In this document: positions 26,854 to 52,170 of the stretch, in pieces
How the letters are laid out: each line of letters begins with the position of its first letter
Numbering within the stretch: the stretch's first letter is position 1
Origin: Margaritifera margaritifera
Lineage: Eukaryota; Mollusca; Bivalvia; Unionida; Margaritiferidae
Assembly: GCA_029931535.1 (NCBI GenBank)
Contig: JAQPZY010000781.1
Span: forward strand, 124,001-188,000
Length of the DNA: 64,000 nt
Direction: 5' to 3'
Notes under the pieces: model-generated
The model's database searches: none
What the model was told of the DNA's origin: nothing
What the model saw: the letters and a program-made list of their open reading frames with translations, nothing else
Made by a program: the position numbers and the translations under genes

Positions 26854-26962
26854 AGTCTTGGATTCAACGCTTGAAAACAAGAGGTCGTTGAATATGCCAA
26901 AGACGTGTGTGACTGTTGAAAGAAAGAAAACATGAAATTTTTGTTTTGAAATGTGAACATGT

Positions 26963-28148: not shown

Positions 28149-28271
<123 letters not shown>

Positions 28272-28897: not shown

Positions 28898-28908
28898 CAG
28901 TCACAAAC

Positions 28909-28975
28909 ATGCCGTTAAACAGTGCATCACTTTCTACGAGTTCATCTCTAAGAACTGCAAACTACAGTATAATCT
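28909..28975 (+). pseudogene. Start of small post-integrase gene (A2)
   Basis: atgccgttaaacagtgcatc and the next ~45 bases align with the start of the small membrane-protein gene that follows the integrase in copy B (atgccgttaaatacagctac from 40832 on -). Similarity stops near 28975, where LINE-like sequence on the other strand begins. Confidence 0.6.
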
Positions 28976-33634: not shown

Positions 33635-33677
33635 ATGATTGAGAGGATATTGCTTCTTAGTTTCGCATGGAGCTTGG
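33635..33677 (+). CDS. CYYR1/Shisa-like protein, exon 1 (signal peptide)
   Basis: ATG at 33635 opens MIERILLLSFAWSL and runs into a consensus donor, gtaagt, at 33678 (phase 1). Joined to exons 2-4 the phases fit exactly (1, 2, 1) and give 154 residues: signal peptide (1-19), Cys/Tyr-rich ectodomain with Cys at 23, 33, 36, 37, 41 and 42, a membrane span at about 51-72 (IACGISGTVILLGLFIGCCI), an RRRR stop-transfer, and a Pro/Tyr-rich tail with PPPY at 133-136 and PPPPY at 147-151. This is the layout of CYYR1, Shisa and WBP1-like small membrane proteins; PPxY motifs bind WW domains such as those of Nedd4-type ubiquitin ligases. Function in this animal is unknown. Intron 1 is 22.1 kb and holds virus piece B. 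The 5' UTR and promoter were not identified. Confidence 0.85.
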
Positions 33678-35453: not shown

Positions 35454-35747
35454 TCACCTTCTAATCAGGGGTCCAGTCTTTATCCCCCTCTGCCTTATTT
35501 TCTCCTGGACCCTCATCCAGTGGGCACTGAGGTGTGGGAATTCCTTCTCTCTCCTCTCCCGCTCTTTTGCCCTCTTCCCATCCGCTTTGATCTTCGCCAC
35601 TTCTTCTTCCATCACTTCTCTGACGAACTCCTTTGCTATTCGTAAAAAGGTCGTCTCCCTCTTTAAATGCTGCTTGTGGGGGTAACACTTTATTTCCTCC
35701 ACCCGACCCAGGAGGTCCTCTACTCTCTCCATCAAACTTGCTTCCAT
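35454..35747 (-). CDS. Charged coiled-coil-like protein, unit 1
   Basis: A 97-codon open frame, MEASLMERVEDLLGRVEEIK..., rich in Glu, Lys and Arg with heptad-like spacing (FLRIAKEFVREVMEEEVAKI). Unit 2 (36209-36545) has a related stretch, FLKIAQDLVEQVLLEEI. Upstream on - is a TATA-like box (tataaagcgg at about 35838) and a conserved start-region motif, ttcatcgtcgac; downstream lies the degenerate stem-loop at 35272. No known domain is visible. The next downstream frame after the stop remains partly open, so the original protein may have been longer. Being part of a repeated unit with conserved promoter and 3' end suggests a real former gene, possibly carried by virus B. Confidence 0.5.
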   Translation of the reverse strand: MEASLMERVEDLLGRVEEIKCYPHKQHLKRETTFLRIAKEFVREVMEEEVAKIKADGKRAKERERREKEFPHLSAHWMRVQEKIRQRGIKTGPLIRR

Positions 35748-35832
35748 TCATTTTCCAACTCTGCAGTGCTGGCTAGCCATTCATCTTTGCGAACGAGTCG
35801 ACGATGAACGGCAAAACTGGATAGCGCACCGC

Positions 35833-35838: not shown

Positions 35839-36162
35839 ACGCTTTAAGCGCGGCCGTGAAGGAAAACACCCCTCCGATTCGATACGCTGGCGTGGAGGAA
35901 AATATGATGTAGTACAGAATGCAAAATCAACAGAAATTGCGCAGATCTAAAATATACTATCCTTCTTATTTTTCACATAGGTTTAACATGAAACAAGGGT
36001 TTTGGTGTTTATACAGACAGACTATACCCACAAATACACTATTACACAGAGGTAGAAGGGGTTTAAGTTTTGTTCTATGTGGAAGACATAGACATACACA
36101 AACACATAAACAAAAACTGGCAATTAATGTTTAGTATCATCTCTTTTCTAAGAGATGTGGAT

Positions 36163-36178
36163 GGCCCTGAAAAGGGCC
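36163..36178 (-). terminator. Perfect histone-type 3' stem-loop, unit 2
   Basis: On the - strand ggccct-tttc-agggcc forms a 6-bp stem with a TTTC loop, preceded by caaccaaac and followed by catccacatctcttagaaaa, with a purine-rich aagagat further on. This matches the replication-dependent histone mRNA 3' end (6-bp stem, UUUC-type loop, CAA-rich 5' flank, ACCA-like 3' flank, purine-rich downstream element), with base pairs that differ from the common GGCUCU/AGAGCC but keep pairing. Such ends are bound by SLBP and cut by the U7 snRNP instead of being polyadenylated. Confidence 0.7.
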
Positions 36179-36208
36179 GTTTGGTTGTCGTCCTGGACTG
36201 TTGAGATG

Positions 36209-36545
36209 TTAACGTCGACGATATTTATGACGGGTAGGTCTCGCCATGGGCTTCACTACAGCGCAGGGTATTCTCTTCCTGTAGGAGATAGGGGCCTCAT
36301 CTGTCTCCATCTTCCATTCTTCCACCTCTTCTCCCTTTTGCTCCTGCTGTTTCTTTTCCCTTTTCAGCTGTTATGTTCTTATCTCCTCAAGCAGGACTTG
36401 TTCCACAAGGTCTTGGGCTATTTTGAGGAAAATGGTGATCTTCTTCTCCATTTTCCACTCAATGAGATGGTTCCTTATCGTGTTCATGTGCACGATGGCA
36501 TAGGGTAACTTCCTAATATTTCGCTCAATTTATTATGAGTTTGCT
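36209..36545 (-). pseudogene. Charged coiled-coil-like protein, unit 2
   Basis: After a frameshift near 36510 the - strand reads LPYAIVHMNTIRNHLIEWKM, then EKKITIFLKIAQDLVEQVL, one internal stop near 36370, a Lys/Glu/Gln-rich stretch, and ends PTRHKYRRR with a stop at 36209. The stop lies 31 bases before the perfect stem-loop, as short as in histone mRNAs. It is a tandem paralogue of unit 1 (about 0.75-0.9 kb away, same strand). I do not recognise a domain, and it is not a core histone. Confidence 0.5.
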
Positions 36546-36589: not shown

Positions 36590-36936
36590 TGGTAGAAGCA
36601 AGGACGTTAAGGAACAAAAAACTCCGATTCGGTACGCGGACGTGAAAGAAAAAATTCTTGTTTTTTTACAAAGATTGACAGAAAGAATGAAAGAGGATGT
36701 CAGCACAATTGGTGGGGCAAAAACTAAACAATTTTTAATAATAATAAGAAGCTTCTCTAACTCAAACATGAATAAAAACTGACAAATTAAACATGAACGT
36801 ATTTACAAAGTTGACTAAGTTGTGGAGTCAGACTTGACTTCCAATGGTCATCTACTAATGTGTTATTTTGCCATCGACGCACACTACGTTTCTGAGCTAA
36901 AGAAAACATATAGCCATAATGTTCACAAAATCACCT

Positions 36937-37370
36937 TTATATTTTATCATCGTTTCTAGAGTACTCACTATCAAAACAAGTAGCTAAATGTTCTAAGGGA
37001 AATCCAAGACTGTGTTGATGAAGAAAATAATCATAATATTGTCCACACACAATGGAATCTGATCCTTGTAATATTACATTATTAAATTTAGTAGATACAG
37101 CATTTTGTCTCATAAAATCGATGATGTCGTCTTCCAGAGAAGGTAATCCATAAGAATCAAAATATTCCACACTGTGATCGCTGGAAAAGTAGACGGCTAC
37201 CCAATAGGTTCATGGACAATGACCGAAGTCTGTGTTAATGACACAGGTTTGAACATCTTTAGGTTTTCGATCTCGAAACACCGCTGGATTCCAAGGAGCA
37301 GTGTACGAACGGTGAGTCGGAAGATAATGAAGTTCCCAGGTTTCCATATTTCTTTTTTTCACAAGTAATA
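36937..37370 (-). pseudogene. Adenain/Ulp1-like cysteine protease relic
   Basis: The clear part (37170-36937) reads EYFDSYGLPS, then FNNVILQGSDSIVCGQYYDY, carrying the Gln oxyanion-hole and Cys nucleophile region of adenovirus-type maturation proteases (LQ-x-x-x-S-x-x-CG-x-Y). Just upstream on - a frame reads CVINTD and TYWVAVYF: the family catalytic His before W-V-A reads Tyr, next to a stop. Such proteases cleave capsid precursors during maturation. Loss of the His and the stop make this copy inactive. It is the last gene of the run, after the CHGCQ protein. Confidence 0.88.
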
Positions 37371-37389
37371 ATAAATTATCAGTTCACAC

Positions 37390-37844
37390 ATGACTTTTTT
37401 ATTTAAAATATCTGTCAAGTAAGTCCATGAACGGGTAGTCTCTGTACTCTGTTGCAAGAGAGCTTCGATGCGTTTTGTCTCCAGAGAAATCAATGGAGGT
37501 GAGGAATAGTCATGCAAGTTTTTATACAACTTGTTCAAAGTCTTCTCTTCTGAAATGAGGGCCGATGCATCTTCCAGATACTCTTCCTACTTGACTTCTG
37601 AACTCATCATCAAACATTTGTTGTGCTGTTTCTGACTTGGATGATCGATTTGACAACCATGACAATGTTCTATAGCTAGACCTGTAATTTTTTCAGCCAA
37701 GTCACGAGCAAAACAGGAAACTAATTTTTCTTCTTGTTCTTGCCATCTTGACATCATGACTGTATTTTTGTCTTCTTTTGTCTTCTTCACTTTTGGTCTG
37801 TGACCACTGTTGTTGTTCTGGATAGAAAACATCCTCTTCGCCAA
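37390..37844 (-). pseudogene. Conserved small viral protein with CxGCQxDHPSQ motif
   Basis: The frame 37844-37587 (85 codons) contains IEHCHGCQIDHPSQKQHNKC followed by LMMS, a Cys/His cluster I recognise from a small uncharacterised gene that usually lies beside the capsid gene in Maverick/adintovirus-type elements. A stop at 37587 interrupts a continuation (EEYLEDASALISEEKTLNKL) to about 37390. The Cys/His spacing suggests a metal site. Biochemical role unknown. Confidence 0.7.
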
Positions 37845-37877
37845 TCTCCATAGGTTCGTGTTCCATCTTTGTTTCTT

Positions 37878-39081
37878 CTAATAGTCTAGGATCACTTGTC
37901 TCAAACTGTTGATTTCCATAGTATTGTCGAATTCTGCATATAAGATGACGTTCACTGTGTTCGTCAGAGCTACTGTAAATTAAAGTCCAAAAGAAGTTGG
38001 CCCGATTTTATAGGGTGGAAATGTCCCTCGTTGTAGCCTTGGTCTGGAGTGAAATCAAAGTCCCATAAAGTATATCCTCCTGCATAATCGTCGTACGAAA
38101 TTCAGTGGCTGCTGTTGATACCTAACTGTCCTGTGACTTCAAACAGTGTTAAGTAAGATCTCAAATAATTGTTCTGGGCAAAGTTAAGTTCCAAAGGTCT
38201 GCTACGCAACACCTGGTCATAACGAGTGACTTCTATCTTGGACATGCACAAGTGCTGCAACTCAAAAAGAGTTTGATCGATAGCTCCTTTAAGGGCCGCA
38301 TTGCTGACGGTACAGATGAACAAAAGTTTTGGTAGCTGTCCTTGGAAAACATGATCTTCGATCTTGGCTCGGAGTCCAGAGGCAATGGCGAAGGTTTTGA
38401 CTTCCACTTGTCGTTCTGCTCAAAGTTTGACTTACTGTAGTTTCCCACTTTAGGTAAGACCTCCATATGTCGCAAAGAAAAGTTGGCTTCTTCGATGCTC
38501 GTTTTATACTCGTTAGCATTGGCCATCTAATCGAACACGGTACTACTTCCATTCTGTTTCAGGCGTACATCCACTCTATTCAACATATACTTTTCTCGCA
38601 ATTACATGTCCAAATGCAAGCGATCCGTCATTTCTAAACCACGTCCTTGTTTGATTTTCTTTCAACGGTAGTTTTTCCATACCACAGAAGCATCCAAATG
38701 TGTGTTCTTGGCTTCATTTCCGTACGTCACTATTTTTTGCAGGTGCACCCTGCTGCTGACCAGTTTGTTATTCAAGTACAAATCCACTTCGCTGAACAAT
38801 AAATGCATTAAATTGTTGACGGGATCCTCTCTGGCATCGGCGCTTTGATTGTTGCTTTCGATTTTGAGAACTTTGACTTTCAGGTACAAGTAATTGTTAT
38901 TCAGATCGATGTAATCTTCGGTTTGTCCTTTGATTTCAAATTCGATAGGTGCTGAGTTGGCCAAGGACGACACAGGATCAAATTCTACTCATTGGGATTC
39001 TTGCATTGTTATCATTGTCGGTGGCATGGCAAACAGATCAAGTTCTGACTTGGAACATTCGCAAGAATCTCGGTGCATCAT
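37878..39081 (-). pseudogene. Major capsid protein (double jelly-roll) relic
   Basis: ATG at 39081 opens an N-terminus with SELDLFAMPP; a TGA at about 38987 interrupts before VEFDPVSSLANSAPIEFEIK. Then EDYIDLNNNYLYLKVKVL, LLFSEVDLYLNNKLVSS, YMLNRVDVRLKQNGS, IEEANFSLRHMEVLPKVG, VFQGQLPKLLFICTVSNAA, PLELNFAQNNYLRSYLTLFE, GGYTLWDFDFTPDQG and NTVNVILYAEFDN follow in order across several frames to a stop at 37878. About 400 codons, with the order and motifs of the Maverick/adintovirus capsid family (often seen as F54H12.2-like proteins in animal annotations). At least four frame changes or stops occur. This forms the hexon-like shell of the particle. Confidence 0.92.
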
Positions 39082-39094
39082 TTTTCTTTTTTTC

Positions 39095-39540
39095 AGTTAG
39101 TAGTAAAAAAACGTCCAATTCTCTGACAGCTGTTGTTCTTCTTTTCTTGTACTTTTCTGAATGTGTCCAGGAGGTCTGAAAGGTTTTTGTCGTCTCTTTC
39201 TGCCTTGTCCTTGTTGTGGCGTAGTGGAGGAAGTAATGCCTTGGCCAAAAGTGTGAAGGGATATTTATTGGGGTATTCTGGCGCCCGAGGAGGTCTTTTC
39301 CAGTTTGAAGCAAAATCTGTTTTTCTGCTTTGATGAAATCTTCTTTAGGAGCTGTTTGTCAATGAATACGTTTTGGAGACATTCTTTTCCTTGCGCCAAA
39401 GCTGCTGAGTCTTTTAAAGCATGCAATCCTCGAGTCACGATCGGTTTGAAGATCGATTCTACCGTACGAAAAGCTGATTTTAACATATCTCGTAAACCAT
39501 GTCCTTGTTATTGAGCGACTCCTTGGTACACAGTGTACAT
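39095..39540 (-). pseudogene. Core/pX-like minor virion protein relic
   Basis: From ATG at 39540 the frame reads MYTVYQGVAQ, a stop, then QGHGLRDMLKSAFRTVESIF and KPIVTRGLHALKDSA. The GHGL-x-D motif followed by an amphipathic F-x-x-x-x-P-I/L-x-x-x-G-x-x-A-L helix is typical of a short protein found next to the capsid gene in Maverick/adintovirus genomes and compared with adenovirus pX/pVI. After a frameshift near 39265 a Lys/Arg-rich tail (GQGRKRRQKPFRPPG) continues, suiting DNA binding or condensation. It ends next to the capsid start. Confidence 0.75.
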
Positions 39541-39661
39541 CTGTTGCAATTTACTGAAGAATCGTTTTAGAAAATGCAGCTTCACCGTGACTTTTCTTTT
39601 CGAGAATAGAATATTGTATCCAAGATCTCTTCTTATACTAATATTGACACTGTCAAAATAC

Positions 39662-40432
39662 TATTTACTGAGAGGAAGGTAATGAGGATGTACAAATTCT
39701 CGCTGAACGTGATACGTGTTTTCTCCTGCATCGTAAGCATCTATGGCAGAATCCACTTTGAAAAGAATGACTCTCAGCAACGGAGCGGCTGTGTTTCCCA
39801 TGCTGTTGTTCTCGACGACACCCGAGTACACAAACATCAAATTTAGTCCTTCGTTGAATTCGAATAGGGAAGCAAAAATACTTGTAGAATCGATCGTTAT
39901 TGTGAATTTCTTGTATAGGAACGAGAGTAGAAAACAAACAGGGACAACAATTAATGGGCACCGTTTTGTCGTTAGAAAATCCGTTTTAAGACGATGAACA
40001 ATGGCAAGGTATTCAATCTGTACACCTCGGCGGATTTTCTCAAGTGCTTTGCCAAACTAATGGTTGAAAATAGGTGAAATCGTAACGACGAGATGTCGAG
40101 CATTAACATAATATCCTGTAGGAATTCTCATGGTATTGATGTTCAGTTGAGGATTAGTTGGTGATGGCTTTTTCGATTCGTCACAGCCAGGATCATTTTT
40201 GTCCAACTGTTCTTGAATTTGTTCGTTGAGAATATCTAAGAAAAGTGTTTTGACCGCCGTTGATATTGATAGCTTCAGTAGGATGAATGATTTCTACCCA
40301 AGCTACTTCCCAATGAGCTTCCTGATCCAATTTTGTGGATTGAGGTAATTTGGCCGTGAAACAACATAAGGTGTTGTTGGGAAGATATCCATAGAACTGT
40401 CAATGGGTAATATTACATACAATTGGTTATTT
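39662..40432 (-). pseudogene. Penton-base-like (single jelly-roll) minor capsid relic
   Basis: In order on -: FYGYLPNNTLCCFTAKL, AHWEVAWVEIIHPTEAIN, an Asp/Gln-rich linker, MRIPTGYYVNARHLVV, FGKALEKIRRGVQIEYL and, after a frameshift near 39895, IFASLFEFNEGLNLMFVYSG, NTAAPLLRVI, YHVQREFVHPHYLPLS then stop. W-E-V-A/G-L-x-E-I-x-Y-P, I-P-x-G-Y-Y and the C-terminal PLLR...H..F..P.Y.P pattern are those of the penton-like protein of Maverick-type viruses, which occupies fivefold vertices. Frameshifts near 40395 and 39895 and a stop near 40058 inactivate it. Confidence 0.85.
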
Positions 40433-40634
40433 ATAGTTTGATGGTTCTGGTGTCCGAGGAGCTACTCGTTGTCAAAGAATTATTTTCCAAATATTCTAAA
40501 AGAAGGCTGCTTGCGTGACTGAAAGAGTGGTGACTGGCGTTGGCGGCAAGTCTACCGTTGTTGTTGTTACTGTCGGTATATTTCAACGAGGGATTGGGAA
40601 GAAGTTAATCAATACAACTGCTGAGTAAAATAAT
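40433..40634. other. Short spacer between small membrane protein and penton-like gene
   Basis: Thr/Gln-rich frames on -, with no recognisable domain. It may be the remnant of a short linker gene or the start of the penton-like gene. Confidence 0.3.
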
Positions 40635-40832
40635 TTATATTTGTTTATTTCCTTGTTGCAAACTCAAATTCCCAATGGCAGCTACGATGACACAATACAC
40701 CACAAAGATTCGGCAGTAAAAGACGATTTGCTTTTTAGGGACACGTTCTCCATAACACACCCCGAGGGGTTGTTTTTGTAGTTCTTGGAGACAGGAACTC
40801 TGACAAAGAGATGTAGCTGTATTTAACGGCAT
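40635..40832 (-). CDS. Small predicted single-pass membrane protein
   Basis: An intact 65-codon frame, MPLNTATSLCQSS..., with a hydrophobic segment FYCRIFVVYCVIVAAIGN (about residues 38-55) and a Cys-rich N-terminal part. It begins 12 bases after the chromodomain frame stop, on the same strand. Piece A2 has the start of a homologous gene at the same place after its chromodomain (28909). No family is recognised; a virion membrane or accessory role is only a guess. It is one of the few unbroken frames in piece B. Confidence 0.55.
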   Translation of the reverse strand: MPLNTATSLCQSSCLQELQKQPLGVCYGERVPKKQIVFYCRIFVVYCVIVAAIGNLSLQQGNKQI

Positions 40833-40843
40833 GGTAGTAACTT

Positions 40844-41960
40844 CTAGTTCTGTTTATAGTCGATGACTTGTGAAGCAGCAATCGAAGAATTAAAACTTAG
40901 TGGATATCTTTTCCAACGAACTTTCACTTCTTGAAGTCGACATTTTCCCACTTTACGTGTTCTTCGATCAAAAATTTTTTCGATATCGTACACGTCGTCT
41001 TCTTTCTTAGTCACTCGTTTTAACCCAGGCAAGTTAAAAGTTCCTTTTAACACTTCTCCGTTCATATCTTCCAATTTATAGAAGGAGGATCACGTCCACG
41101 CTCTTGTCCAGTGAGACAAACAAGTCTGTCGTCGAGTTCGATAAATATCCATAAGTGCGTTTTGTTTTTCCAGTGCGAACCCAATCTACAGTGTTTAACA
41201 TTTCTTTCTTTTTTTCTGGTTTGTGACGTTCCAAATAATTTATCAAACACCATCATTTCGTTTTTATGTTTCAATTCTTCTGGTGTACATCTGATGCTTC
41301 GACGATACGATTGATGGTAAACTTTGACTAGACGTAGTAACAAGTCGATGTATTTGAGAGTGTGCTGAGGTGTAAAATATTTTCACATACGTTCTTTCAA
41401 AGTTCCCTGAAAACGTTCCACGCTTCTAGCTTTTGTTTCATGAATTTCAGTGGTGAAAAATGAATGTGTCTTTTGTTAACTTCTTTTTGAAAAGATTGGT
41501 TTAGAAATTCGGTACCTTTGTCTGTTTGTCATCGTAGAGGATGCCGGCCACTTTGTTTCACAACATGTTTTAAAGCTCACACTAACTCTGAACTTCTTTT
41601 AGAAGTCAAAGGAACTACCCAAACTGATTTTGAAAATACGCCAATGACACAAAACAAATATTTGTAGCCACGATTGTACGACGCCAAACGAGAGACATCT
41701 GCTAAATCTGTTTGCCATTGATGATCAATGTCTGCTATTTTCCATTGACTTTTGGAAAATTTTTGTCAAATGGGTTTGTGTAACGTGTACGTCGATTGTT
41801 CTTGTAACCATTGTTACACATCTTGCAGAAGTAAAAGTTTGAGTTTCCTTTTAGCGGCACGATACAATTTCCGAATTCCTCCGTAACCATCAACATGAGC
41901 AAGAGTTTAGTAAATGCTGGCTAGAAGTGTATCCAATTGGTTTGCTGCTTTGGTGCTGCT
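40844..41960 (-). pseudogene. rve integrase with C-terminal chromodomain, relic (B)
   Basis: In order on -: GYGGIRKLYRAAKRKLK; WQTDLADVSRLASYNRGYKY with LFCVIGVFSKSVWVVPLTSK (first Asp); DKGTEFLNQSF (second Asp); RSVERFQGTLKERM in another frame (Glu); YFTPQHTLKYIDLLLRLVKV; YRRSIRCTPEELKH; then, after a stop at 41062, an SH3-like stretch and a chromodomain, VYDIEKIFDRRTRKVG with VKVRWKRYPLSFNS. The D-D-E triad is still readable, but several stops (for example near 41790, 41600 and 41385) and a frameshift break it. The chromodomain probably targeted methylated-histone chromatin. Confidence 0.92.
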
Positions 41961-41962
41961 CC

Positions 41963-43430
41963 TCAATAAGTCGCCCACTGTTCGATACTGCTCTTTAATT
42001 GTTTGTGTGGTATTGTTTTGGATTTCGACAATACTTGACGTGTCTGACGAGCAATATGAGTAGGAGTAATCATCGGCTGTTTGGTTACTTTTTTCTTGAT
42101 TTCCTTTCTCATTTCTGTCTTGCTTTCTTCATTTTTATTTTGCTGAAGAATTGTCGACATCATCTTTTTGACCCATTTCTTCTCGTCTGGGATTTGGGGA
42201 AGGCGTCAACAAGGAGACTGTCATACCAGGTATTTGAGCAGACGGAGTTTGAAACACTTCTTTCGTTTCTTTATCTTCTTACATCATGTTGGCTATTTCT
42301 GTCATCGTCTCTTTTGCTTTTTGTTTTTCTTCGTTTCTTTTTTATGGCATTCTTGAAATCTCTCAGAGTAGGGTTAGCTGTCTCGTCTAAAGCTTTCTGG
42401 TAAAACAATTGAAGAGCTTGCTATGATTGTCCGTACCTTTGCGATTTTTTTTTGTTTCTGACAAATCTGTTCGATCCATCAGCGATTTTAATTCTTGTTG
42501 TAAGTGTGACATCTCAGTGAGATTAGGATTAGGAGGTAAATGGGGTGTCCGTTGTTCGTACCAACGATGGAACTAAAGTTAATTTTCTTCCTTCCATAAG
42601 ATCCAATGGTACAAGTGTGATGTCTTTTCAGAAAAGTATGTCCGTTTATCTTCTTCTTTCTCGTCTAAGCACTCCTCCTACAAGAGGTCCAGCAATCGAT
42701 CCTAATAAAGGAGCAGCCACTTTTAACAATAGTCATATTGGTATGGGTGGAAATCCTTCTCGTTGAACGAGCATTTTTTGTTTGATGGATTGTATTTTCT
42801 TTTTCACAATTTGGCGAAGAAGGTGATGATGTCGACCTAACTGCTGTTTCTGTATCTTGGAAAAAGACACCTTTCCTCTGAAAATGTTCAACCTCATTCA
42901 CGCAATGTATCTATGATTTTGTTTTGGGTGATTTTTAAATGATTTGTTTTCGCGTCGAAACATTGGATTTGGTCAGTACTGACAACACATCCCAATGTTG
43001 AGCCAAACGAAGAGGGAGTCCCTTTTCCGTTTCTTTGATGAAGGTTTGCTTTGGCCGTGGTCGATGATGATGATGGTATAAACTTGGTGACATCTTTGTT
43101 GCAGGAGGAAAGAACTGAAATGAATCATATCGAACGCTTCTTCCTCTTTTATACTAGAATTTATCTCCACTGATTGTCCCCACGGCGTATCAGCTTGACT
43201 CTGGGTACTACTGGTTTTCTCAACTGACTAAATCGTACCATTTCTTGTTTGAACTAATCCAGTAAACTTTGTAACATGCCTGTTCTCTCTTGGACTTTTG
43301 TCTTAGGAGAGGCCACTTTTTGGCTGCAGCAGCAGCAGTTAGAGCAGTAGAAGAAGCCGTTGTTGCCGGAGAAATAGAAGTTCCTTCCGAAATGGATTTC
43401 CCTTTTTTTCATGAAATTGGGAAACACTGG
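41963..43430 (-). other. Low-complexity viral gene region (Lys/Glu/Ser-rich frames)
   Basis: Between the basic protein and the integrase, - strand frames are short and biased: 42163-41963 (Lys/Glu/Gln-rich), 42901-42665 (Ser/Thr-rich) and 43170-42973 (Ser/Lys/His-rich). A poly-Ala stretch (ALTAAAAAKKWPL) lies near 43320-43370. In related viruses this interval holds rapidly changing virion or accessory genes. I cannot name any; frame changes suggest one or two decayed genes. Confidence 0.35.
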
Positions 43431-43433
43431 TTT

Positions 43434-43727
43434 TCAATCAGGTTTGGCGCGCATCATCATGAACGCAGAACAAGAAGAAGAGACAGGAGAAATCGTCAAT
43501 GTGCGTGGTTTTCTTGAGTACGTGCGCATTCTAGTTGCAGTGCCTGTCTTTCTTGCAGGAAATGTTTCTTTCTTGGGAGTTTTTTTTCGGCTTTTCTTCC
43601 TCTTTTTGTTAGAGTGTAAAATTGCTGCACCACCACATCTCTTCTTTTTGCTCTGCTGTCTTTTATGTGATTTGGATTTTCGCTTTGGTATTAAAATCAC
43701 ATTTAAAAAGTGAACGAATAATGACAC
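43434..43727 (-). CDS. Strongly basic protein (core-protein-like)
   Basis: A 97-codon frame dominated by Lys/Arg: KRKSKSHKRQQSKKKRCGG, NKKRKKSRKKTPKKE, then ARKTGTATRMRTYSRKPRTL. The composition is that of DNA-condensing virion core proteins. It overlaps the end of the preceding LLQG-motif frame, so the real gene may start elsewhere or the two may be one frameshifted gene. Identity by composition and position only. Confidence 0.4.
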   Translation of the reverse strand: MSLFVHFLNVILIPKRKSKSHKRQQSKKKRCGGAAILHSNKKRKKSRKKTPKKETFPARKTGTATRMRTYSRKPRTLTISPVSSSCSAFMMMRAKPD

Positions 43728-44037
43728 CTCCTAAAGTTTCACTTCCACCAAGTTTCAAAATGATTTTTTTTTTTTGGTTTTGCGTATTCATTTTTGGATC
43801 AGCCAGTTGTGACACAGCTACTTTATGTTGTCTTTTTAAAAAAAAAAAACGTTTTGTTTGATGTGGTATGTGAATGATACCTTGTAGTAATGTACATGCT
43901 GTCAAAGTAAAATGTACTAATACTTTTTTGAGACTAGCTTCTAACAAATTTGAACGTACTGGTGCATTGTTTTTGCGACTGATGGCATACAGTGCACGAA
44001 TCAATTTAGCAGGAGGATGAGATTGAAACGAAATCAC
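43663..44037 (-). pseudogene. Conserved small viral protein with LLQG motif
   Basis: The first ~80 residues read LIRALYAISRKNNAPVRSNL, then a helical segment and ACTLLQGIIHI, then KRQHKVAVSQLADPK and a Lys-rich IILKLGG end. The pattern of two helices, L-L-x-G-N/I-I/V-P-L, then K-x-x-L/V-x-x-L-A-D, then K-rich, then a GG end is one I associate with an uncharacterised small gene found in most animal Maverick/adintovirus elements. Role unknown. The GG may be a protease site, as adenain-like enzymes cut after such motifs (inference). Confidence 0.55.
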
Positions 44038-44068
44038 GTTGAATACTGTTAAAAAGAAAAGAAGTCAA

Positions 44069-44690
44069 TTATGTTTTTATGGTTTTGTTTAGACAGACGA
44101 AAACTAGCAAGGTGACGTGTAAAGGACCTCCTTCTTGACACCAATCTTGAAACAAGTTTGTACGAAATCTCAAATAATCCAGAGTGGTAGATTTTAAATC
44201 AATGAGTAAATACGCATGTGACAACTGAGTGGCATCGTCATACACATAATTGAGCCAAGATGGTCCTAACTGTTTGGTTAACACTTGCACCTGAGATTTG
44301 TCTCTTGGACTTTTTTAAACAACAGTACATACTATGCACTGAAACTGATGGTGCGATGCGCTCTACTTTGTTGGAATACATCTTTTCTTTAGTAATGTAA
44401 ATAATACTGGTATAACGATGGTGTCCTTTTCGTGTAAACCAAAGTTTCATTTGTTCTTCGTCTTCTCCTAACATGTCATCGAAGATGATGTGATGTGTTT
44501 GCCTAGAGTCAGACACGATCCCATCGTCTTCGCGAGGAATTCCTTCTACAAACGAAATGGATTATCCTTGACTTTCTTTGAGTAACATGTTAGCCGATTG
44601 CCACTCTTTGTAACACCACACGATGCGTTCTACAGGACCATCGAATAATTTGTATTTGTGTTCGATCAAACGCTCTGGCCTTCTAGTCTC
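44069..44690 (-). pseudogene. Packaging ATPase relic (B), P-loop deleted
   Basis: Readable parts on -: RLIEHKYKLFDGPVERIVWC and YKEWQS (44660-44580), THHIIFDDMLGEDEEQMKLW (Walker B, about 44500-44430), FTRKGHHRYTSIIYITKEKM, then after a frameshift LTKQLGPSWLNYVYDDATQL and HAYLLIDLKSTT. The region that should contain the Walker A loop, still present in copy A2 (27150-27175), is replaced by unrelated sequence, so nucleotide binding was lost by a deletion. Stops also occur at about 44566 and 44320. Confidence 0.9.
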
Positions 44691-44953
44691 TGTGAAATTC
44701 ATCTGCCCTAACCTCTCATTTCTTCATTCTTTTCTATGTGTACAATCTACTACTACTTTCGTGGGCTCGTAGTATTTCTTCCTCTATTTCTGGTTGTTAT
44801 TCCACTGTTTCTAAAACAGGCGTTAATTCCACTTTCACTTCTGGCTTTTCTCCTACTCTTTCTAAGTCAAATCTTTTTCTTTGATCAGTCATACCTAATG
44901 TCTTTTGCATAATTAGCCACCTCTTGTATCCAAGCATCGAAGCTAAGACTTTT

Positions 44954-45590
44954 TCAGTCACGTACATCCTTCCAGGCGTAAGTCTGTTGGTGTAACCAAC
45001 TGGCTATATACACTTCCTGGTAAGTATGAAGTGTGGAAACAGTACGACGAATCTCTTTTTCACACGGAGGTACACAACTCGGGTTCATCACTGTTCGCAA
45101 CACTTTTAACATAATGCGTTTTTCGTGCGCAGATAAAGTTTTGGTTGCTATGTCTTTGCTGCATGTACTGTTTATAAATTGTCCACAACGAATTTGCTGG
45201 TAAACCAAATCCAAGAAAAGTAGTCACTAACATACTCATCACACGTCGTCCGAAATAAAATTGAGTCGTGTCGCCTTGTGGAATCAGTTCTTTTAATAGT
45301 ATTTGGTAATCCACTAAGTCTTCAACACTGTCATTGACGTCTTTTATACAATTTGCCGGAGCAATGATGGCAAAAGTCGTGGCATCGAGATCTTTATATT
45401 CACGAAGTGTTTTGTGTCTGTCATAATCTTTCCCAAGAATCAATCTTCTTATACTGTAGCAATAGCAATTGTTTGAGAATCGAGAAATGGTTCTGAGTTT
45501 GCGTTTCACTTGAATCTTTACAAACTCTCTGTAAATGCGTTCTCGAAGTACCAGTGGTAGATTCCGAATGTGGTCTTCTAGACTAGACAT
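44954..45590 (-). pseudogene. Conserved unknown gene between BIR and ATPase (B)
   Basis: A 176-codon frame, MSSLEDHIRNLPLVLRERIY..., frameshifts near 45130 into a frame ending CEKEIRRTVSTLHTYQE and TYAWKDVRD at 44954. The 3' half matches the A2 gene at 26546-26853. The first 40 residues (RNLPLVLRERIYREFVKIQV) resemble the short frame following the BIR domain near 46060-45980 (RSLP-x-EQRERIYRDFVQIQ), so the N-terminal module is duplicated. No membrane span or known domain; helical, charged. Confidence 0.6.
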
Positions 45591-45599
45591 TCACAGGAA

Positions 45600-45891
45600 T
45601 GTCTTTCTTTTTGTGGAAATATACACACGTTTGCCAAATGAAATCTGGTGGTAAAGCATATCAAAGAAATTCAGTCATTATCTCACTACACATCCCACGT
45701 CGTGAAGGAGTTTCGTTTTGAGGCAATACATCTTTTAAAAGTGTTTTTGTATTTCTGTAAGTTTGTAACCTTTTCCTGGACTTCGTTCCATGGAATTCTG
45801 AGTACCACTGCAACATTGCAGATAGAAGTCGTGACATCTTACAGGAGGCAGGTAGTCGTTGATCACTGTCTGACCATTTGAACATCTTCAA
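45600..45891 (-). pseudogene. Unknown viral gene fragment
   Basis: An open frame of 76 codons (45891-45661), MKMFKWSDSDQRLP..., with LLSAMLQWYSEFHGTKSRKR and LLKDVLPQNETPSRRGMCSE, then a continuation to about 45600 in the next frame (LYHQISFGKRVYIST). It lies directly before the conserved unknown gene on the same strand. No domain recognised; a helical character is likely. Confidence 0.4.
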
Positions 45892-45979
45892 ACAATCAAC
45901 TTTGTTTTATAGCATTCAGATACCAATGGTTTAAACGTCTGTGTCATAAAGGATCCAATTGTTCTTTGCGTTTAACTTG

Positions 45980-46065
45980 AATCTGTACAAAGTCTCTGTA
46001 AATGCGTTCTCGCTGCTCCTACGGTAAACTACGATTTGTCTCTTCTAAAGTATCCATGAGGATAA
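45980..46065 (-). pseudogene. Partial copy of the RERIYR module
   Basis: After the BIR domain the - strand reads TLEETNRSLP, a stop, then EQRERIYRDFVQIQVKRKEQ, ending soon after. It parallels the start of the gene at 45590 (LEDHIRNLPLVLRERIYREF), showing a local duplication within the element. Confidence 0.6.
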
Positions 46066-46468
46066 TAATCATGCCCCACCAAGAAAGGTACTGCCAGCAA
46101 GAAGACAATATGGCATGTTCTAGGAAAGCTGAATCTTTATACTTCCATTCGTGGATCTTCACACCACAACTGAAACACTGTACTTGGTCTCCTCGCCCCA
46201 AGTAGCTAAATCCAGCTCTGCTTAAAGTTTTGGTAGTGGGTAATCCATCCAGAACTTTAGGCCATTTTTTGAACGCGTTCAATAGACTTTCAAATTCACA
46301 ATAGCCAGGCAAAGCCAGAGGAAAGAAGTATTCTTCTTTGATTTGTAAATCTCCATGAGCTATTGGTATCCAGATTGGTTTGCGAGTGCAGAGTGCATGG
46401 ATGACATCCATATATAGGTACAATAACGGCATCGCATTCGCTAGTAAAGCGAAAAGGTCATGCTGCAT
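46066..46468 (-). CDS. BIR-domain (IAP-type) protein (B)
   Basis: A 149-codon frame (from 46468) that stays open across the domain. The N-terminal ~57 residues include EEYFFPLALPGY (shared with A2). The BIR spans about residues 65-128: AFKKWPKVLDG, LSRAGFSYLGRGDQVQCFSC, then EWKY and LEHAILSSCWQYL. Ligands are Cys98, Cys101, His118 and Cys124; the H-to-C spacing is five residues, one short of the canonical six seen in A2, so a codon was lost. There is no RING. Known BIR proteins of insect and mollusc DNA viruses can block apoptosis; that role here is inference. The frame continues into the RERIYR module. Confidence 0.87.
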
Positions 46469-46469
46469 C

Positions 46470-46622
46470 GTTTCGCTAGTAGAGCGGCAAGGTTGTGCTG
46501 CATCGCTGATGTCACAGGGTACGGCATCACTCTGATCTCAAGGCACAGCGTTGCACTCGACTTAATTGAACTTGGAGTCTGCACTGGGTCCCTCACTTGG
46601 TCAATGTGCTGAATTTATCTTT
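46470..46622. other. Short spacer upstream of BIR gene
   Basis: A near-duplicated stretch (cgtttcgctagtagagcggc compared with cattcgctagtaaagcgaaa) suggests a small tandem repeat at the 5' end of the BIR gene. No gene seen. Confidence 0.35.
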
Positions 46623-49600
46623 CTAGGTGAACCCTTGTATTTGCAATGAACTTTCTGTCTTGGAACTCTCTCTCTTTTTATAATGGAGATCAGCGTATCC
46701 ATAAGGTAACTTGTTGTGGTCAGGAAGTCGCACTCGTTTCTGGTAGGCAAATTGATATACTTTGTCTAAGGGTCGCCTGACGATTTTGTGATTTCGCAAA
46801 CGTACAATTTTGTGAGGATCCATTGTTTTTACCCGAAAGTATTGATCTTGTTGTGACTTTAATGTTTTTTTAAGACGTCAAAGTTAAGCACTTGCCTGGA
46901 ACGATAGTTAAGTGTAAGTCCTTTAACTTTACATTTCGTATAAAGTTGTCCTTGTTCTTCTCTGTATTGGTAACCGTAATATTTGGGTCCACCACTAGCA
47001 AAAACTCAAAATAGTGTCTTCGGGATGTTCATCGATCCAAGCTCCTAAACGTACTTCTTCGATGCGTGGGTGATAGCTTCCAGGGCGATCAATGTACACG
47101 CAAACTATCGGTGTCAAAGTAAAGGACGAGATCTCCTAAAGGTTCCAAGACAGAATACAAATTTAAACGGGTATTGGCTGTCACGTACGCTGGAATGTTG
47201 ACATTTCCAAATCGGATGTTGAGCCAATTTTCACCACAAACAGTTCAACATGACTTTTGCAAAAGATCGTCTTCGTTCGTTTTTTCCCACGTTTCCCAAA
47301 GTGATGCCTTCTACGGATCGGCACCGTTCATTGAATGTCTCTTTGTCTTCTGAAGTCGTACACCAAGAAGGATAGCCGCTAGCTTCTTTCTTCAGTTGAA
47401 TTTCGTTGACGTAGCCTGAGAAAATTCCTTCACTGGAGTCATCGTCCTGTTGGCACGATACTGTGGTAGGAAAGTGTCAAATTTCAAGTTCTTTTAACAG
47501 TCGGTATATACTGCACGATCAAGAGCATAAAACAATTCGACACACACTCACGTTCCTGTCAAGGCATTTTCATAGATTCGATGGCCACCACGTGGTACTA
47601 TTCAGCAATCCGCCTAAATTCTTGATAGGTTTTTAAACGTCGATCGTAGTCGTGTTCCCACATTTCTATCAGTTTGTATCCTTGACTTTCTAAATTATGT
47701 CGTCGTTGGTATCTTTGCTCGTTCAACTCTTCCAGGGTGAACTCTGAGAAAGGACTTTTCAGGTATCGTTGAGAAAATCAAGTTGGGTATCCATGAAATA
47801 AACATCCTTGAAATTCGTAGTCGATCTGTGGGTTTTCTAAATCCTACCCACCTACGGGAAGACTTCCAATTTACATTTTTCCACCATTTCTAGCCTGGTG
47901 TAGCCTATTGTCTTCAGTTTCACACAAGTAATTGAATCAGGCAAAGCTTTGGCGGAGTATCGACAGCTGACAGAGAGATAGAGTCTAGTTTGTTCTCAGG
48001 CATAAACTTTTTCGGTACACTAATCATCACGCTTTGGCAATGATATAAACTTCCTTCAAGGGATTGATACCTCCGTGATCCAGAAATAATTGTGGAAATT
48101 GTTCACAACACCGTAGGTAAATGTTCACATTAGATCGACAATATTTCAACATTTCTTCTTGAAAGTCAAAAGAGTCTGACGAGCAGACTTGCCACCAAGC
48201 GTAGCATGCTTCTCATTGTTCTGTGTGCATACCGTCAGGGTCGTTGTAGCCAATTTCAGGCAAATGAGGGAGCACAACGTGTTGATTTGCTTCTGTATTG
48301 AAAAAGTGTGGAAAACAGCCATTAGTCATTTCTGTCATTCCAAACGTTTCGGACATTCTACTCAAAGGCATGACCAAATAACTCATGGAATCTTTAAACT
48401 GTACGTTTCCCACTTTAATGTAAATGAATTTGGCTCCGTTCATGTTCACTGTTGGAAATTCTGTTCCTTATTCTGAATAATATTTTAAAAGAAACTGTCC
48501 GTCGGAACTGGAGAAATTGTGAGCCATGGCTGTAACATGTCGATGCCAGTTCCCGTAACGCTGGATTTCCTCTTCGCTCCAAGAGTCGTCAGAAGGGTCA
48601 CAAATCCATTCGGCAAAATCAGAAAGAGTACGAGAGCCACGAAAGATCGTTTCTCGTCCTCCTGGAATATTATTACAATTTGGACGATGAAAAAATATAG
48701 GTTCTTGTTTATTGTCACAAGCATGATGCTCTACGCAAAAATTAGGTATGTGAATTCCAGTCTCTTGTGAACATTCCAAGTAAAAAAAAGATTGAATACT
48801 TCCTCGAGTTTATTGTCATAGTTTTGAATGTAACATTGATGATTGAATCCACAATTTGGTCACAAACGCGGCATCTTTTCTTTCCTGGACAAACATGTGA
48901 CTTATGGTTATTCGTTCGAACAAGATGTCCACAAGTGGAGCACACTCTCTATAATTCGCAAAGATTTTGTTGTTGTTGTTGGAATTGTTTCATGCGATGT
49001 TGTTCGTAAGGGGATGAACTGACAAAGGTTCGCTTGGAATTAGAGCAATGAATTATTTCTTTTCCTTCAGGAATGCAAGGTCTGGAAGCTAAATACCCAC
49101 GACATCTCTTTCCACAATGAATATGTTGATCTCGATGGCTAAATCCTTGGTCACATTTCTCGCAATAGCAACTGTATCCAAGAAATCATGTGATTGCTGT
49201 AAAATGGCATCGAAATGCTCTTGATGACGATAAATGTGAACGTATTTTCCATGTAGAAAATCTGGTCCTCAAAACACGAGAGATCCGCAAACAAATTGAG
49301 GGTATACTTTCAACGTATAACGAAGTGCCAACACATCTTGAAGTTTTTGCATTTCAGGAATTCCACACACGGTCTCTTTAGCAATGCCCGCTTGGTGCAA
49401 AAGAATTTCTTTTTCTCTTCGTTGTTGCAGTCTGTCCGATTTTTTAATGCATTTACATGATCGTTTCCATTCTGCTGTGTCATTCTTCTCGGCATAAGTT
49501 TGAGTCACTACGATGGTACGGGCTAAACACATTTAGTCCTGATGATTGTTAATCTGGACGATACTTTGTTTGGTACTGCAAAGTTCATCCGCGAATAAAA

Positions 49601-50147
49601 CGTTGCGTCGTAAACTCCCTCTTGGTGGTAAAACGTGTGTCATGTGAAGGATGGCTCATCGATAATTTTGAAAGACGTTAATTCTGCAGGTGTACCAAAC
49701 TAGATCTAGACAGGAGACTTCAAACTGTCGTTATAAACAAACGTCATCTTTCTCTTGGCACTGCCGTTTCAATGTTTATAATAATGATTCCCATAAATCT
49801 GCACTGAAACCCGCTGCTTTCTCTGGTGACACTTGAGACTTTAACTCTTTAAATTTCACCGTGTACGTATAAGCCGTCGTTTGAAATTTTCTGGAAGTCA
49901 CTTTTTGGGTCTCTCGAATGTGAAAATAATCTTCAGGAGCGACCGAACAACTTTCTTTCTTGGCTGATCTTGACTCTCTTGGTGTTGTAGTGAAGGTAGA
50001 TCGTGTTGGCTCAGGCTCACTCATGTCCTCGTCAAAAGCATTGGCATGAACTTGTGCTAACACTTCAGTGAGCGTATGTGGTGACATCGAAAGTCGTCGT
50101 GTCTTGGTTTCTTCTTGTTTCTCCTCAGCAAGGTGTGATCGTTTCAT
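46623..50147 (-). pseudogene. Protein-primed family B DNA polymerase relic (B)
   Basis: Starts ATG at 50147 (MKRSHLAEEKQEETKTRRLS). In order: TYTVKFKELKSQVSPEKAAG; CLARTIVVTQTYAEKN near 49520; AKETVCGIPEMQ near 49370; a zinc-finger region with CEKCDQGF-type pairs near 49170-48870 (CSTCGHLVRTN, CPGKKRCRVCDQIVD); TAMAHNFSSSDGQFLLKYY near 48530-48480 (exonuclease); VGNVQFKDSMSYLVMPLSRM near 48390; PEIGYNDPDGM near 48245; VLYFDTDS near 47110 (motif C intact); YYGYQYREEQGQLYTKCKVK near 46990-46930; and a C-terminus with KVYQFAYQKRVRLPDHNKLP near 46740. About 1,150 codons once; many stops and frameshifts now. It is the first gene of the run, transcribed toward the BIR gene. Confidence 0.93.
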
Positions 50148-50244
50148 CTCGATTCAAAATTTGATTTGACTAAGGTACACACTCTCTCCCAACATATAGA
50201 AAGACTATCACCTTAAGAGAATATACTGATTCAGCTTTCAGTCC

Positions 50245-50631: not shown

Positions 50632-50855
50632 AAGAAACTGAAGTAAAAGATCCATGCCAGTGAAGAAATTCAAAAGAGAAAGACAGTGAAAGAAAGAAGA
50701 AAATATACTTTTTTGTCTCTTTGTCTTGATTTTGTTTCTTTTAGTATCGAAAAGATCTTCACACACGCACGCATTCACATATTATCATGGAGGGATTTAA
50801 GTTTTTTTTGATTTGGCAATCAGTGAATAGCATCTCTTTTCAAAGAGATATAGGT

Positions 50856-50871
50856 GGCCCTGAAAAGGAAG
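50856..50871 (-). terminator. Partly decayed histone-type stem-loop, unit 3
   Basis: On - it reads cttccttttcagggcc, followed by acctatatctctttgaaaag. The loop TTTC and the 3' arm agggcc are intact, but the outer half of the 5' arm no longer pairs. The downstream hairpin-like atctctttgaaaagagat is shared with units 1 and 2. Confidence 0.55.
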
Positions 50872-50929
50872 GTCTTTTTCTCTTCGGATGGGCTAAAAGA
50901 GTCTGGTACATTTCTTTGAGATGTTTTAA

Positions 50930-51312
50930 CAGACTAACCATTTTGTTTCAATCTCTTCCTTCTGTTCGCTGTTCAAAGTTTCCCTCTTTTCTTCTTCTTC
51001 TACTCCCTTTTGTTGTTGTTGAACAAATATTTTTTCTTCTTCTTTCTGACGTCGCAAAAACCTATCCAACTCTTCCTTCCTTTTCCTTCTGAAATAATCA
51101 TACACTGGTAATGATGGAGAAGGAGGTGAAGGTGGTAGTTGGTACTACCGCCGCAAAAATTCTTGCGGGGACAATAGGAAATAGCGCAAGGCCAAATTGA
51201 AGTCATCCTCTTCTGGAAGAGGAATACTTGCTACAGCTTCAGTTGTAGTAGTAGTCGTACTATCACTGCAAGTATACGCACCCCAATACATCGTCTTCAT
51301 TTTATCAGCCAT
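50930..51312 (-). pseudogene. Charged protein with histone-like 3' end, unit 3
   Basis: From ATG at 51312 the frame reads MADKMKTMYWGAYTCSDSTT, a Thr/Glu stretch, IPLPEEDDFNLALRYFLLSP, and a TAG at 51145. It then continues in the same frame with a Pro/Ser linker (QLPPSPPSPSLPVYDYF) and a Lys/Glu/Gln-rich coiled-coil-like tail (RRKRKEELDRFLRRQKEEEK) to about 50930. Upstream on - are ccaat (about 51458) and tatatatgcgc (about 51372). The C-terminal part resembles units 1 and 2 in composition; the N-terminal part differs. It lies upstream of the zinc-knuckle gene and is convergent with it. Confidence 0.5.
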
Positions 51313-51367
51313 ATGTATAGTACTCAAACTGTTCTGCAGTGGTAAATCGTAGGAACACTGGTGCGCA

Positions 51368-51378
51368 TATATATTGAA
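51368..51378 (-). promoter_or_regulatory. TATA-like box with upstream CCAAT, unit 3
   Basis: tatatatgcgcacc on -, about 60 bases upstream of the ATG at 51312, with an accaatcag (CCAAT) motif about 85 bases further upstream. This is the arrangement seen in many histone gene promoters. Confidence 0.4.
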
Positions 51379-51479
51379 AGTGACGTACTCGTCCGCTGAC
51401 CTCTGTTTGGAAGGGAGACTAGAAACCCTGACTGAATTATGGTACGCACATTCTGATTGGTGGAGCATTTCAATCGTTT

Positions 51480-52170
51480 CGATCCGGTCCAAGACTATAT
51501 ATATATACACAGGCACATTGACCCATTGTGTCACCTGTTCTCAAGACGACCCGTCAAGATGTGGACAAGCGTGGAAACAAACAAGAACGTACACAAGCAC
51601 ACACATACACAAAGAGTCACACGCGTAGAACAGTACATATTTACATTTAGAGATAGAGAAGCAAAGTTATTTAGAATAATCAAGGGGTCTAAAGTTAAGA
51701 AAAATAACAAAGTTACAGAAAAATAACTACATGTCAAGAAAGGGACCTATTATCTATGAATAAGGCGAACACGTTTGAATACATGCTAGGATCACTATAG
51801 AGCTGTAATGCTTGACATGACCGACTTATTTTTACGTCATTGCAAGGAAGTCTGGTTACATAGAACGCCATCTGTAGCGGTGCATTATTTTTTGTTTCTA
51901 GTTTTACATCCCCGATATACATTCCATTGCGAGAAACAAATATATGAATGTATTTACCTTACAAGGGAAGATGGTGGAAGGATTCAATAATGAGAGAGGG
52001 GGTGAGCAAAGTGATATGTAACAAAATGAGAAACTGTGGGCTAAACAGAGCCCTGTTGGACTTGAATTTTTCGTTGAAGCCAAAATTCACCATATGTTCA
52101 CTTCTGCAGGATCCCATATTTCTCTTTATGGCAACGTTCATTGTCGGTACATCTGTTATTTGACTCAGTG
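51480..52170. other. Gene-free stretch
   Basis: AT-rich intronic sequence with short featureless frames only. Confidence 0.4.

Follow-up and report, generated by a model that had tools for sequence, protein, structure and literature searches.

Terminal inverted repeats and a target-site duplication are what we take to be features of Mavericks/Polintons, and replication-dependent histone genes are, to our knowledge, the main animal genes whose mRNAs carry histone-type 3′ ends. Adintoviruses have been described as having an integrase with a C-terminal chromodomain, a PolB with an N-terminal OTU-like domain, and a hexon that is recognizable by reciprocal BLAST (PMC11071296). In one account of histone mRNA processing, SLBP binds the stem-loop and rises before S phase, U7 small nuclear RNA (snRNA) base-pairs with the downstream element, and the endonuclease CPSF73 is part of the complex (PMC7614891). 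Here, we describe a decayed Maverick/Polinton-type provirus in Margaritifera margaritifera that occupies the minus strand from about 35.46 to 51.59 kb of a 64,000-nucleotide stretch (assembly GCA_029931535.1, contig JAQPZY010000781.1, positions 124,001 to 188,000), hereafter the window. Its family has at least five small orphan genes, called S genes here, distributed over the two ends of a conserved core (genes for the polymerase, BIR protein, ATPase, integrase, penton-like protein, capsid, and protease), and behind four of them (S-1, S0, S1, and S2) stands a conserved signal with the layout of host H3 and H4 genes. Judging from sequence, the S genes probably use host SLBP/U7 processing, which would yield S-phase-coupled mRNAs without poly(A), with the core genes expressed by ordinary polyadenylation.

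Results

The host assembly (2.45 Gb, 1,696 contigs) contains hundreds of related copies. A search with the ATPase piece scored 150 of 9,273 first-look candidates, including the window copy, all at E ≤1.5e-27 and many with open frames of 200 to 300 amino acids. This list is a lower bound, as it lacks a relic at 23493-28950 of the same window. With 149 further places in the genome matched by the ATPase piece, the window element belongs, as a decayed copy, to a large family of endogenous Maverick/Polinton-type viruses. From the scored rows we took 20 copies in stretches of 9.2 to 9.9 kb, 10 upstream (L009-L018) and 10 downstream (L019-L028), each covering part of the element. The S genes and signals at the ends of the window element, in window coordinates, are the following.

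35457 to 35777, minus strand: S3 relic, a terminal orphan gene (tblastn with the S3 of L027, 37.9% identity, E 3e-10)
36138 to 36183, minus strand: histone-type 3′ end of S1, with the stem-loop at 36163-36178 followed by AGAAAAGAG (Rfam RF00032, Histone3)
36296 to 36529, minus strand: S1 relic (tblastn with the S1 of L028 aligns 36517-36296, 35% identity, E 2.5e-6)
50828 to 50885, minus strand: degenerate histone-type 3′ end of S0, stem core at 50856-50871 with three mismatches
50929 to 51540, minus strand: S0 relic in two open pieces, recognized by eye from MADKMKTMYWG as in the S0 of L009
51455 to 51590, plus strand: promoter region common to S0 and S-1, with the initial codons of the divergent S-1 (ATG at 51559), the rest being lost (weak blastn match; MWTSVET by eye)

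The signal behind S-1, S0, S1, and S2 consists of a 6-bp stem, a TTTN loop, and, about 13 nucleotides farther on, AGAAAAGA, the arrangement of replication-dependent histone genes. At the 3′ end of S1 in the window, RF00032 scored 36.3 bits (gathering threshold, 34; E 6.4e-7), and the stem-loop has no mismatch, while 0.10 matches would be expected per window at up to three mismatches. The degenerate site at 50828-50885 gave no Rfam match at E up to 1. Across the family, stem-loops (five or six pairs, up to three substitutions) follow S genes or their remnants in 15 of the 20 copies, at 21 sites: 14 in 8 of the 10 downstream copies and 7 in 7 of the 10 upstream copies. Matches above the Rfam gathering threshold occur in 8 of the 20 copies, with seven in six downstream copies and two in two upstream copies.

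The signal does not arise by chance. In 197,268 bases, the strict stem-loop plus AAAGA was found 13 times in sense and 3 times in antisense, the latter three belonging to the divergent S-1 or, in L013, to its remnant; each of 20 dinucleotide shuffles returned none. Genome-wide, the exact pattern AACGGYCCTTTTCAGGGCCACYCA-N4-9-AGAAAAGA occurs at 2,192 places (1,079 and 1,113 on the two strands), and its reversed control at none. Together with the low expectation per window, these zero counts rule out chance stem-loops as an explanation. Among 100 listed of the 2,192 places, 16 neighbors within 2.5 kb lie on the same strand, 0.8 to 2.2 kb apart, 5 are divergent at 1,146 to 1,184 bp, and none are convergent.

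Conservation is concentrated in the signal itself. Over 21 sites (19 from the copies and 2 from the window, including the mutated L023 site and leaving out the three antisense sites), the commonest base reaches a frequency of 0.93 in the stem-loop and 0.80 in the downstream element, compared with 0.67 in the intervening spacer and 0.48 and 0.49 in the upstream and downstream flanks, respectively. Variants of the stem mostly stay paired, with C-G, U-G, and U-A all found at the third pair. The stem starts 19 to 35 nucleotides after the stop codon in 11 of 11 S1 and S2 genes and 21 and 26 nucleotides after it in two S-1 genes. One of those 11 S1 and S2 genes has AATAAA or ATTAAA between its stop and the stem-loop, whereas such a motif follows the protease stop within 150 nucleotides in 6 of 6. 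Over the same distance, five penton genes, one capsid gene, and one integrase gene had neither signal. The host's own H3 and H4 genes, which lie in tandem clusters and served as a positive control, have the same stem and spacing and a AGAAAAGA-like element, their ends varying (for example, AAGAAAAGAG, ATGAAAAGAG, and TAGAGAAGA). Viral sites mostly read ACCCA with loop TTTC; the printed host H3 and H4 ends read ACACA with loop TTTT or TTTA.

On the downstream side, S1 (about 140 amino acids) follows the protease in 10 of 10 copies, on different contigs, and the window piece at 36374-36529 matches all ten. A TATAAAGCGGTGCG promoter lies near 36588, and another directly upstream of the S3 relic. 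S2 (about 93 amino acids) was detected with tblastn, and in L021 a stem-loop stands behind an open reading frame (ORF) whose tail resembles S2. S3 is present in L027 and, at the edge of the stretch, in L020, its 3′ end lying beyond the stretches examined. On the upstream side, S0 (about 200 amino acids) precedes the polymerase, and S-1 (75 to 76 amino acids) diverges from it on the opposite strand, as a gene or a remnant, in L010, L011, L013, L015, and L017; S-1 is also present at the end of the L028 copy, including its own stem-loop. In the window, the S0 relic had no tblastn match at E 1e-3, and 51455-51503 matched S-1 regions weakly in blastn (L015, E 0.01; L017, E 0.003). A TATA box precedes the S1 start by 55 to 80 nucleotides in 9 of 9 genes, and TATAWA stands before one of six S2 genes, with TATATTAAAA in the remaining five, and before both of two S3 genes. 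With these common promoter motifs, S1, S3, and some S2 genes may be paralogues.

The products of the S genes match no histone family. Pfam gave no histone match for S0, S1, S2, S3, or S-1, and the S1 structure is predicted as a two-helix hairpin (helices at residues 2-26 and 30-94) with a low-confidence tail containing a basic KRGRP. These results led us to reject the idea that the S genes are histone genes captured by the virus. Eleven Pfam matches of S1 below the cut-off all overlap its glutamine-rich stretch and were discounted, and a search of 5.8 billion proteins found no S1 homologue at E up to 1. Our guess from the predicted model is that S1 may be a nuclear or DNA-binding protein. Within the host genome, S1 is abundant: 150 of 11,483 first-look candidates were scored, all at E ≤1.3e-66 (the query copy included) and on many contigs, and 127 of the 150 have no inner stop.

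Counting-based medians of the ratio of nonsynonymous to synonymous divergence (dN/dS) were 0.16 for S1 (21 pairs), 0.15 for S2 (10 pairs), 0.43 for protease (10 pairs), and 0.75 for penton (10 pairs), in overlapping sets of copies from L019-L028. In the same sets, mean dS was 0.76 for S1 and 1.0 for S2 versus 0.14 for protease and 0.15 for penton. Because the values for S1 and S2 are far higher, the end genes appear to have a more diverged history than the core genes, as if the ends and the core recombine or have different histories.

Some further features of these genes were noted in passing. Two pairs of S1 matches in the same direction and with equal scores (G000:C119:16529/29515 and G000:C360:13011/26016) are 12,986 and 13,005 bases apart, suggesting head-to-tail arrays of the element. 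All five S2 proteins inspected (L019, L022, L024, L025, and L028) have a WxGSCxACxAxPGRCPHx tail, and three (L022, L025, and L028) have a KENW motif; KEN motifs can mark proteins for degradation through the cell-cycle ubiquitin ligase APC/C. At 8091-9900 of L021, ORFs beside the S2-like gene read by eye like another type of viral polymerase, perhaps that of a nested or neighboring virus.

Between the terminal genes, the window retains relics of the following core genes.

36790 to 37383, minus strand: protease (adenain-like) relic, 60.8% identical to a 191-amino-acid ORF of L019 (E 5e-66)
37362 to 38007, minus strand: p184 relic (unknown), its pieces matching nine or all ten of the downstream copies and, weakly, L031 (E 8e-5)
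37973 to 38988, minus strand: major capsid protein relic, F54H12.2-type, the piece 38665-38988 matching 9 of 10 downstream copies
39041 to 39507, minus strand: small conserved gene with a GHGL motif between the penton-like and capsid genes, matching 9 of 10 downstream copies; homologues in L030, L031, and L032
39511 to 40461, minus strand: penton-like gene relic, its pieces matching eight or nine of the ten downstream copies; L029-L032 have homologues, the one in L032 being weak
40638 to 40853, minus strand: p145 relic (unknown), matching 10 of 10 downstream copies; homologues in L029-L031
40847 to 41920, minus strand: RVE integrase relic with a C-terminal chromodomain (40847-41089), from window pieces and the L019 ORF
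41966 to 44064, minus strand: relics of unknown or basic core-like genes between the ATPase and integrase, pieces collinear with downstream copies
44072 to 44723, minus strand: A32-like packaging ATPase relic with Walker B IFDDML, the piece with 150 scored genome matches
44800 to 46057, minus strand: two tandem relics of a 176-amino-acid LRERIYREFVKIQVKRK family and a further small gene, with a direct repeat (45498-45590 and 45965-46057)
46022 to 46537, minus strand: BIR-domain gene relic (Pfam BIR, E 5.7e-15, above cut-off), matching 6 of 10 upstream copies
46626 to 50153, minus strand: family B DNA polymerase relic in many pieces, collinear with as many as 8 of the 10 upstream copies

The initial annotation had recognized a Maverick-type provirus, nearly complete and in antisense, and this reading is borne out. 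Many short open pieces lie on the minus strand of 36.9 to 50.2 kb, and between 36.37 and 50.15 kb they are collinear with the stretches of the 20 copies, S1 being at one end and the polymerase at the other; intact ORFs of better-kept copies confirm the polymerase, the RVE integrase with chromodomain, the BIR genes, and an F54H12.2-type capsid gene. The span of 36937 to 50147 that had been given to the element was too narrow, since S1 with its stem-loop and then S3 (from 35457) lie behind the protease, and S0 and the start of S-1 (at 51559) lie before the polymerase. The terminal S genes with their histone-type 3′ ends had not been recorded. The window copy is dead, its longest open piece being 176 amino acids, compared with 921 amino acids for polymerase and 449 for capsid in better-kept copies.

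Profile searches supported the proposed gene identities in part. Among the window pieces, only BIR was above its Pfam cut-off; the chromodomain at 40847-41089 (E 2.1e-5; 24.8 bits versus a cut-off of 25.1), rve at 41580-41765 (E 0.0027), and the polymerase pieces at 48030-48809 (E 1e-4 and 0.002, two stretches spanning in-frame stops) were all below. ORFs of the copies confirmed polymerase (921 amino acids, L011, DNA_pol_B_2, E 3.3e-15), integrase with chromodomain in a single ORF (L019, rve E 3e-13, Chromo E 4.1e-7), and BIR (L010, E 2e-23; two genes in L011, 1.6e-15 and 2e-23). The ATPase and protease stayed below the cut-offs even in better-kept ORFs: Pox_A32 reached E 2.9e-4 and 20.8 bits in L013, just under the cut-off of 22.8, and Peptidase_C5 reached E 0.056 in L019. 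The ATPase does show Walker A GPSGSGKTEF and Walker B IFDDML and is 40% identical to that of L029. Protease homologues lie behind the capsid gene in L029 and L031 and weakly in L032; a PDB search with the window protease piece found nothing relevant and no protease.

The penton-like, capsid, S0, S2, and S3 ORFs had no Pfam match. The penton-like assignment comes from position and from homologues in relatives. For the capsid, the 449-amino-acid ORF of L028 had 1,646 homologues in the F54H12.2-like family. The predicted capsid model, which would bear on the double jelly-roll fold of Maverick/Polinton capsids, is weak (predicted local distance difference test [pLDDT] 41.5), and we set its fold aside as a stand-alone identification; many of its named Foldseek matches are viral capsids (mavirus, virophages, adintovirus, and asfarvirus), and its best match is a bracovirus protein at 32% identity. 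The piece core138, from the group at 41966 to 44064, has homologues in L029 and L030, and the 176-amino-acid LRERIYREFVKIQVKRK family has two distant homologues in public data.

The window element is 71 to 79%, mostly about 74%, identical to the 20 copies in alignable DNA, and identity among certain downstream copies rises to 93%; by these identities, it is apparently an old insertion in a family that also has younger members. The same window holds two other viral relics. One, at 23493-28950 on the plus strand, is a collinear member of the same family (polymerase, BIR, the 176-amino-acid family, ATPase, and chromodomain) with 72 to 80% DNA identity to the main element in the longer aligned pieces. 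The other, at 19003-23150 (GC content, 0.43 to 0.49), is different. Its plus strand encodes an integrase (rve E 1.2e-7, just below cut-off) and a phospholipase A2-like domain (E 5.4e-6, above cut-off), and its minus strand has polymerase-like pieces with YTNTDSL by eye and without a Pfam match; it looks adintovirus-like and closer to adintoviruses than the main element is. Two well-kept minisatellites lie farther away, at 762-1052 (a 36-bp unit repeated 8 times) and 1269-1919 (a 43-bp unit repeated 15 times).

The element had been placed in antisense within a 22-kb intron of a gene that we take to be CYYR1-like, with exon 2 starting at 55796. Two of the exons of this gene had no Pfam family above cut-off. 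A first scan for a signal-peptide exon 1 returned nothing, and a second, in the right reading phase, printed 16 candidates. One of them, at 33635-33677 (MIERILLLSFAWSL, donor TGG|GTAAGTA), encodes a signal peptide and then NYEC; with it, the intron would measure 22,118 bp and enclose the element. Another, at 17777, would enclose the element too. The intron placement is plausible on these grounds yet ambiguous, because with either of two candidates located past the element and ahead of exon 2 (53176 and 54517), the element would fall outside the gene. The antisense direction is a single insertion and supports no rule about tolerated or counterselected orientations.

Relatives L029-L032 come from metagenome-assembled genomes that evidently contain animal DNA, L029 from an Escarpia tubeworm symbiont and L030 from a Bathymodiolus symbiont. 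Gene order in L029 is the same (polymerase, ATPase, core, integrase, p145, penton, capsid, and protease). We found no S0-S3 and no BIR in the four, their outer ends being covered in part (about 0.8 kb after the protease in L029 and 5.1 kb in L031), and no RF00032 at E up to 0.5; neither S-1 nor the 176-amino-acid family was searched there. A poor five-pair pattern match within the ATPase region of L030 was not counted as a signal. Because S0-S3, BIR, and RF00032 were not found in these relatives, the S genes and their signal look, provisionally, derived in this lineage. In IMG/VR, neither the integrase and capsid pieces nor alignments of the ATPase and the capsid retrieved any relatives, and none of the contigs had the stem-loop pattern.

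The initial annotation had considered the element a distinct lineage of mollusc-associated virus. Distinctness is supported by the BIR genes, by the 176-amino-acid family, and by the S genes at the ends with their histone-type signals; it is not supported by the chromodomain integrase, being also described in adintoviruses (PMC11071296) and present in L029, which matches our integrase through the chromodomain region. An association with molluscs is plausible because the nearest named "F54H12.2-like" capsid homologues, among the best 120 of 1,646, are from Mercenaria, Ostrea, Saccostrea, and Crassostrea.

Discussion

Our results point to two classes of mRNA 3′ end in one virus. Because signals and layout are the same, host SLBP and the U7 small nuclear ribonucleoprotein would cut S transcripts as they do histone transcripts. 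The S mRNAs would then lack poly(A), be produced and translated chiefly during copying of cellular or viral DNA, and be removed once copying stops. Core genes would follow ordinary polyadenylation, because a poly(A) signal stands behind the protease, and the terminal accessory genes would be tied to S phase. A bolder version, which we hold only tentatively and rate at somewhat under even, is that the accessory genes form a mock histone regulon, with divergent and tandem arrangement, TATA promoters, and histone-type 3′ ends, expressed in S phase only. Each round of host replication would then be the switch for the end genes of the provirus, virion core genes would rely on polyadenylated transcription, and the S proteins may coat or license viral DNA and may be made in step with it, as histones are with cell DNA.

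Several observations weigh against the main reading, SLBP/U7 processing of S transcripts with S-phase coupling. Five of the 20 copies have no site: L023 has a mutated stem-loop, the L026 stretch ends within S1, L010 has a degenerate match only, and L012 and L018 are unexplained. The copies themselves were picked with a preference for few stops (a well-kept ATPase) and are not a random sample. S genes are patchy: among the 10 upstream copies, S0 was found in six and S-1 in five, and tblastn detected S2 in six of the 10 downstream copies. Of the 100 listed signal places, 30 are isolated, without another listed one inside 22 kb. We found no terminal inverted repeats, neither as an inverted match between the two end stretches of one copy nor as an inverted repeat of at least 40 bp at 34 to 53 kb of the window. 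Finally, the relatives were searched for S0-S3 over outer ends that are covered in part, which keeps the derived origin provisional.

The stem-loops could instead be inherited baggage, an ancestral S gene having come from, or recombined with, a host histone cluster, with its 3′ end copied and unused. The resemblance of stem and downstream element to host histone genes would fit such an origin, as would the promoter motifs shared by possible paralogues, but the flanks have decayed to 0.48 to 0.49, whereas the stem-loop and downstream element stand at 0.93 and 0.80 with a freer spacer between them, and stem variants mostly retain pairing. The difference between viral ACCCA/TTTC and host ACACA with TTTT or TTTA also argues against recent copying, and we regard this explanation as unlikely. 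We give a similarly low rating to the view that the signal works without S-phase coupling, as a compact terminator, as an export or stability element, or as an escape from poly(A)-dependent decay or silencing. Tight packing of the 16 same-strand neighbors speaks for a compact device, and poly(A)-independent expression has been presented as a general viral strategy (PMC12846552). Yet the host pathway is described as limited to S phase through SLBP (PMC7614891), so its use without timing needs an extra assumption.

It is also conceivable that the S genes are a host multigene family adjoining the insertions or picked up by chance and that the element is an ordinary Maverick. That S1 has no detectable homologue, that the four relatives are without S0-S3, and that nearly a third of the listed signal places are isolated would all be compatible with a host origin. 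Set against this are the constant place of S1 behind the protease on different contigs, the many contigs among its 150 scored matches, and the recurring spacing of signal sites, and we consider a host family very improbable.

If the main reading is true, the family would offer a clear example of the SLBP/U7 pathway being commandeered by a DNA virus, with the signal on several viral genes, retained where the flanks decay, and in some two thousand genome repeats. When and in which cells silent Mavericks are expressed, a long-standing question, would become directly testable, and the family supplies many natural variants of a histone-type signal. It also carries a warning, as poly(A)-selected RNA sequencing would miss such transcripts. 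We know of no other virus with such a gene expression device. In the open-licence literature, we found no paper joining Polintons or Mavericks with SLBP and, among the matches listed, none whose title or abstract dealt with histone-type 3′ ends of viral genes.

Comparison with known systems

Like Mavericks and Polintons, including the metazoan F54H12.2-type, the element is integrated and repetitive and has a polymerase and an RVE integrase together with putative A32-like ATPase, protease, capsid, and penton-like genes, in a gene order common to L029 and, as far as they are covered, L030 and L031. Unlike L029-L032, it has BIR genes, S0-S3, and histone-type 3′ ends. In L029, about 350 bases separate the polymerase and ATPase ORFs, which leaves no room there for the BIR and 176-amino-acid genes. 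With adintoviruses it shares the integrase with a C-terminal chromodomain (as in L019) and, from the weak capsid model, one Foldseek match to a Drosophila-associated adintovirus (E 2.6e-7). The S genes resemble metazoan replication-dependent histone genes in their short ORF, TATA promoter, stem-loop after the stop, downstream element about 13 nucleotides on, divergent pair, and tandem neighbors, and differ from them in that their proteins match no histone family and S1 is predicted to be a two-helix hairpin.

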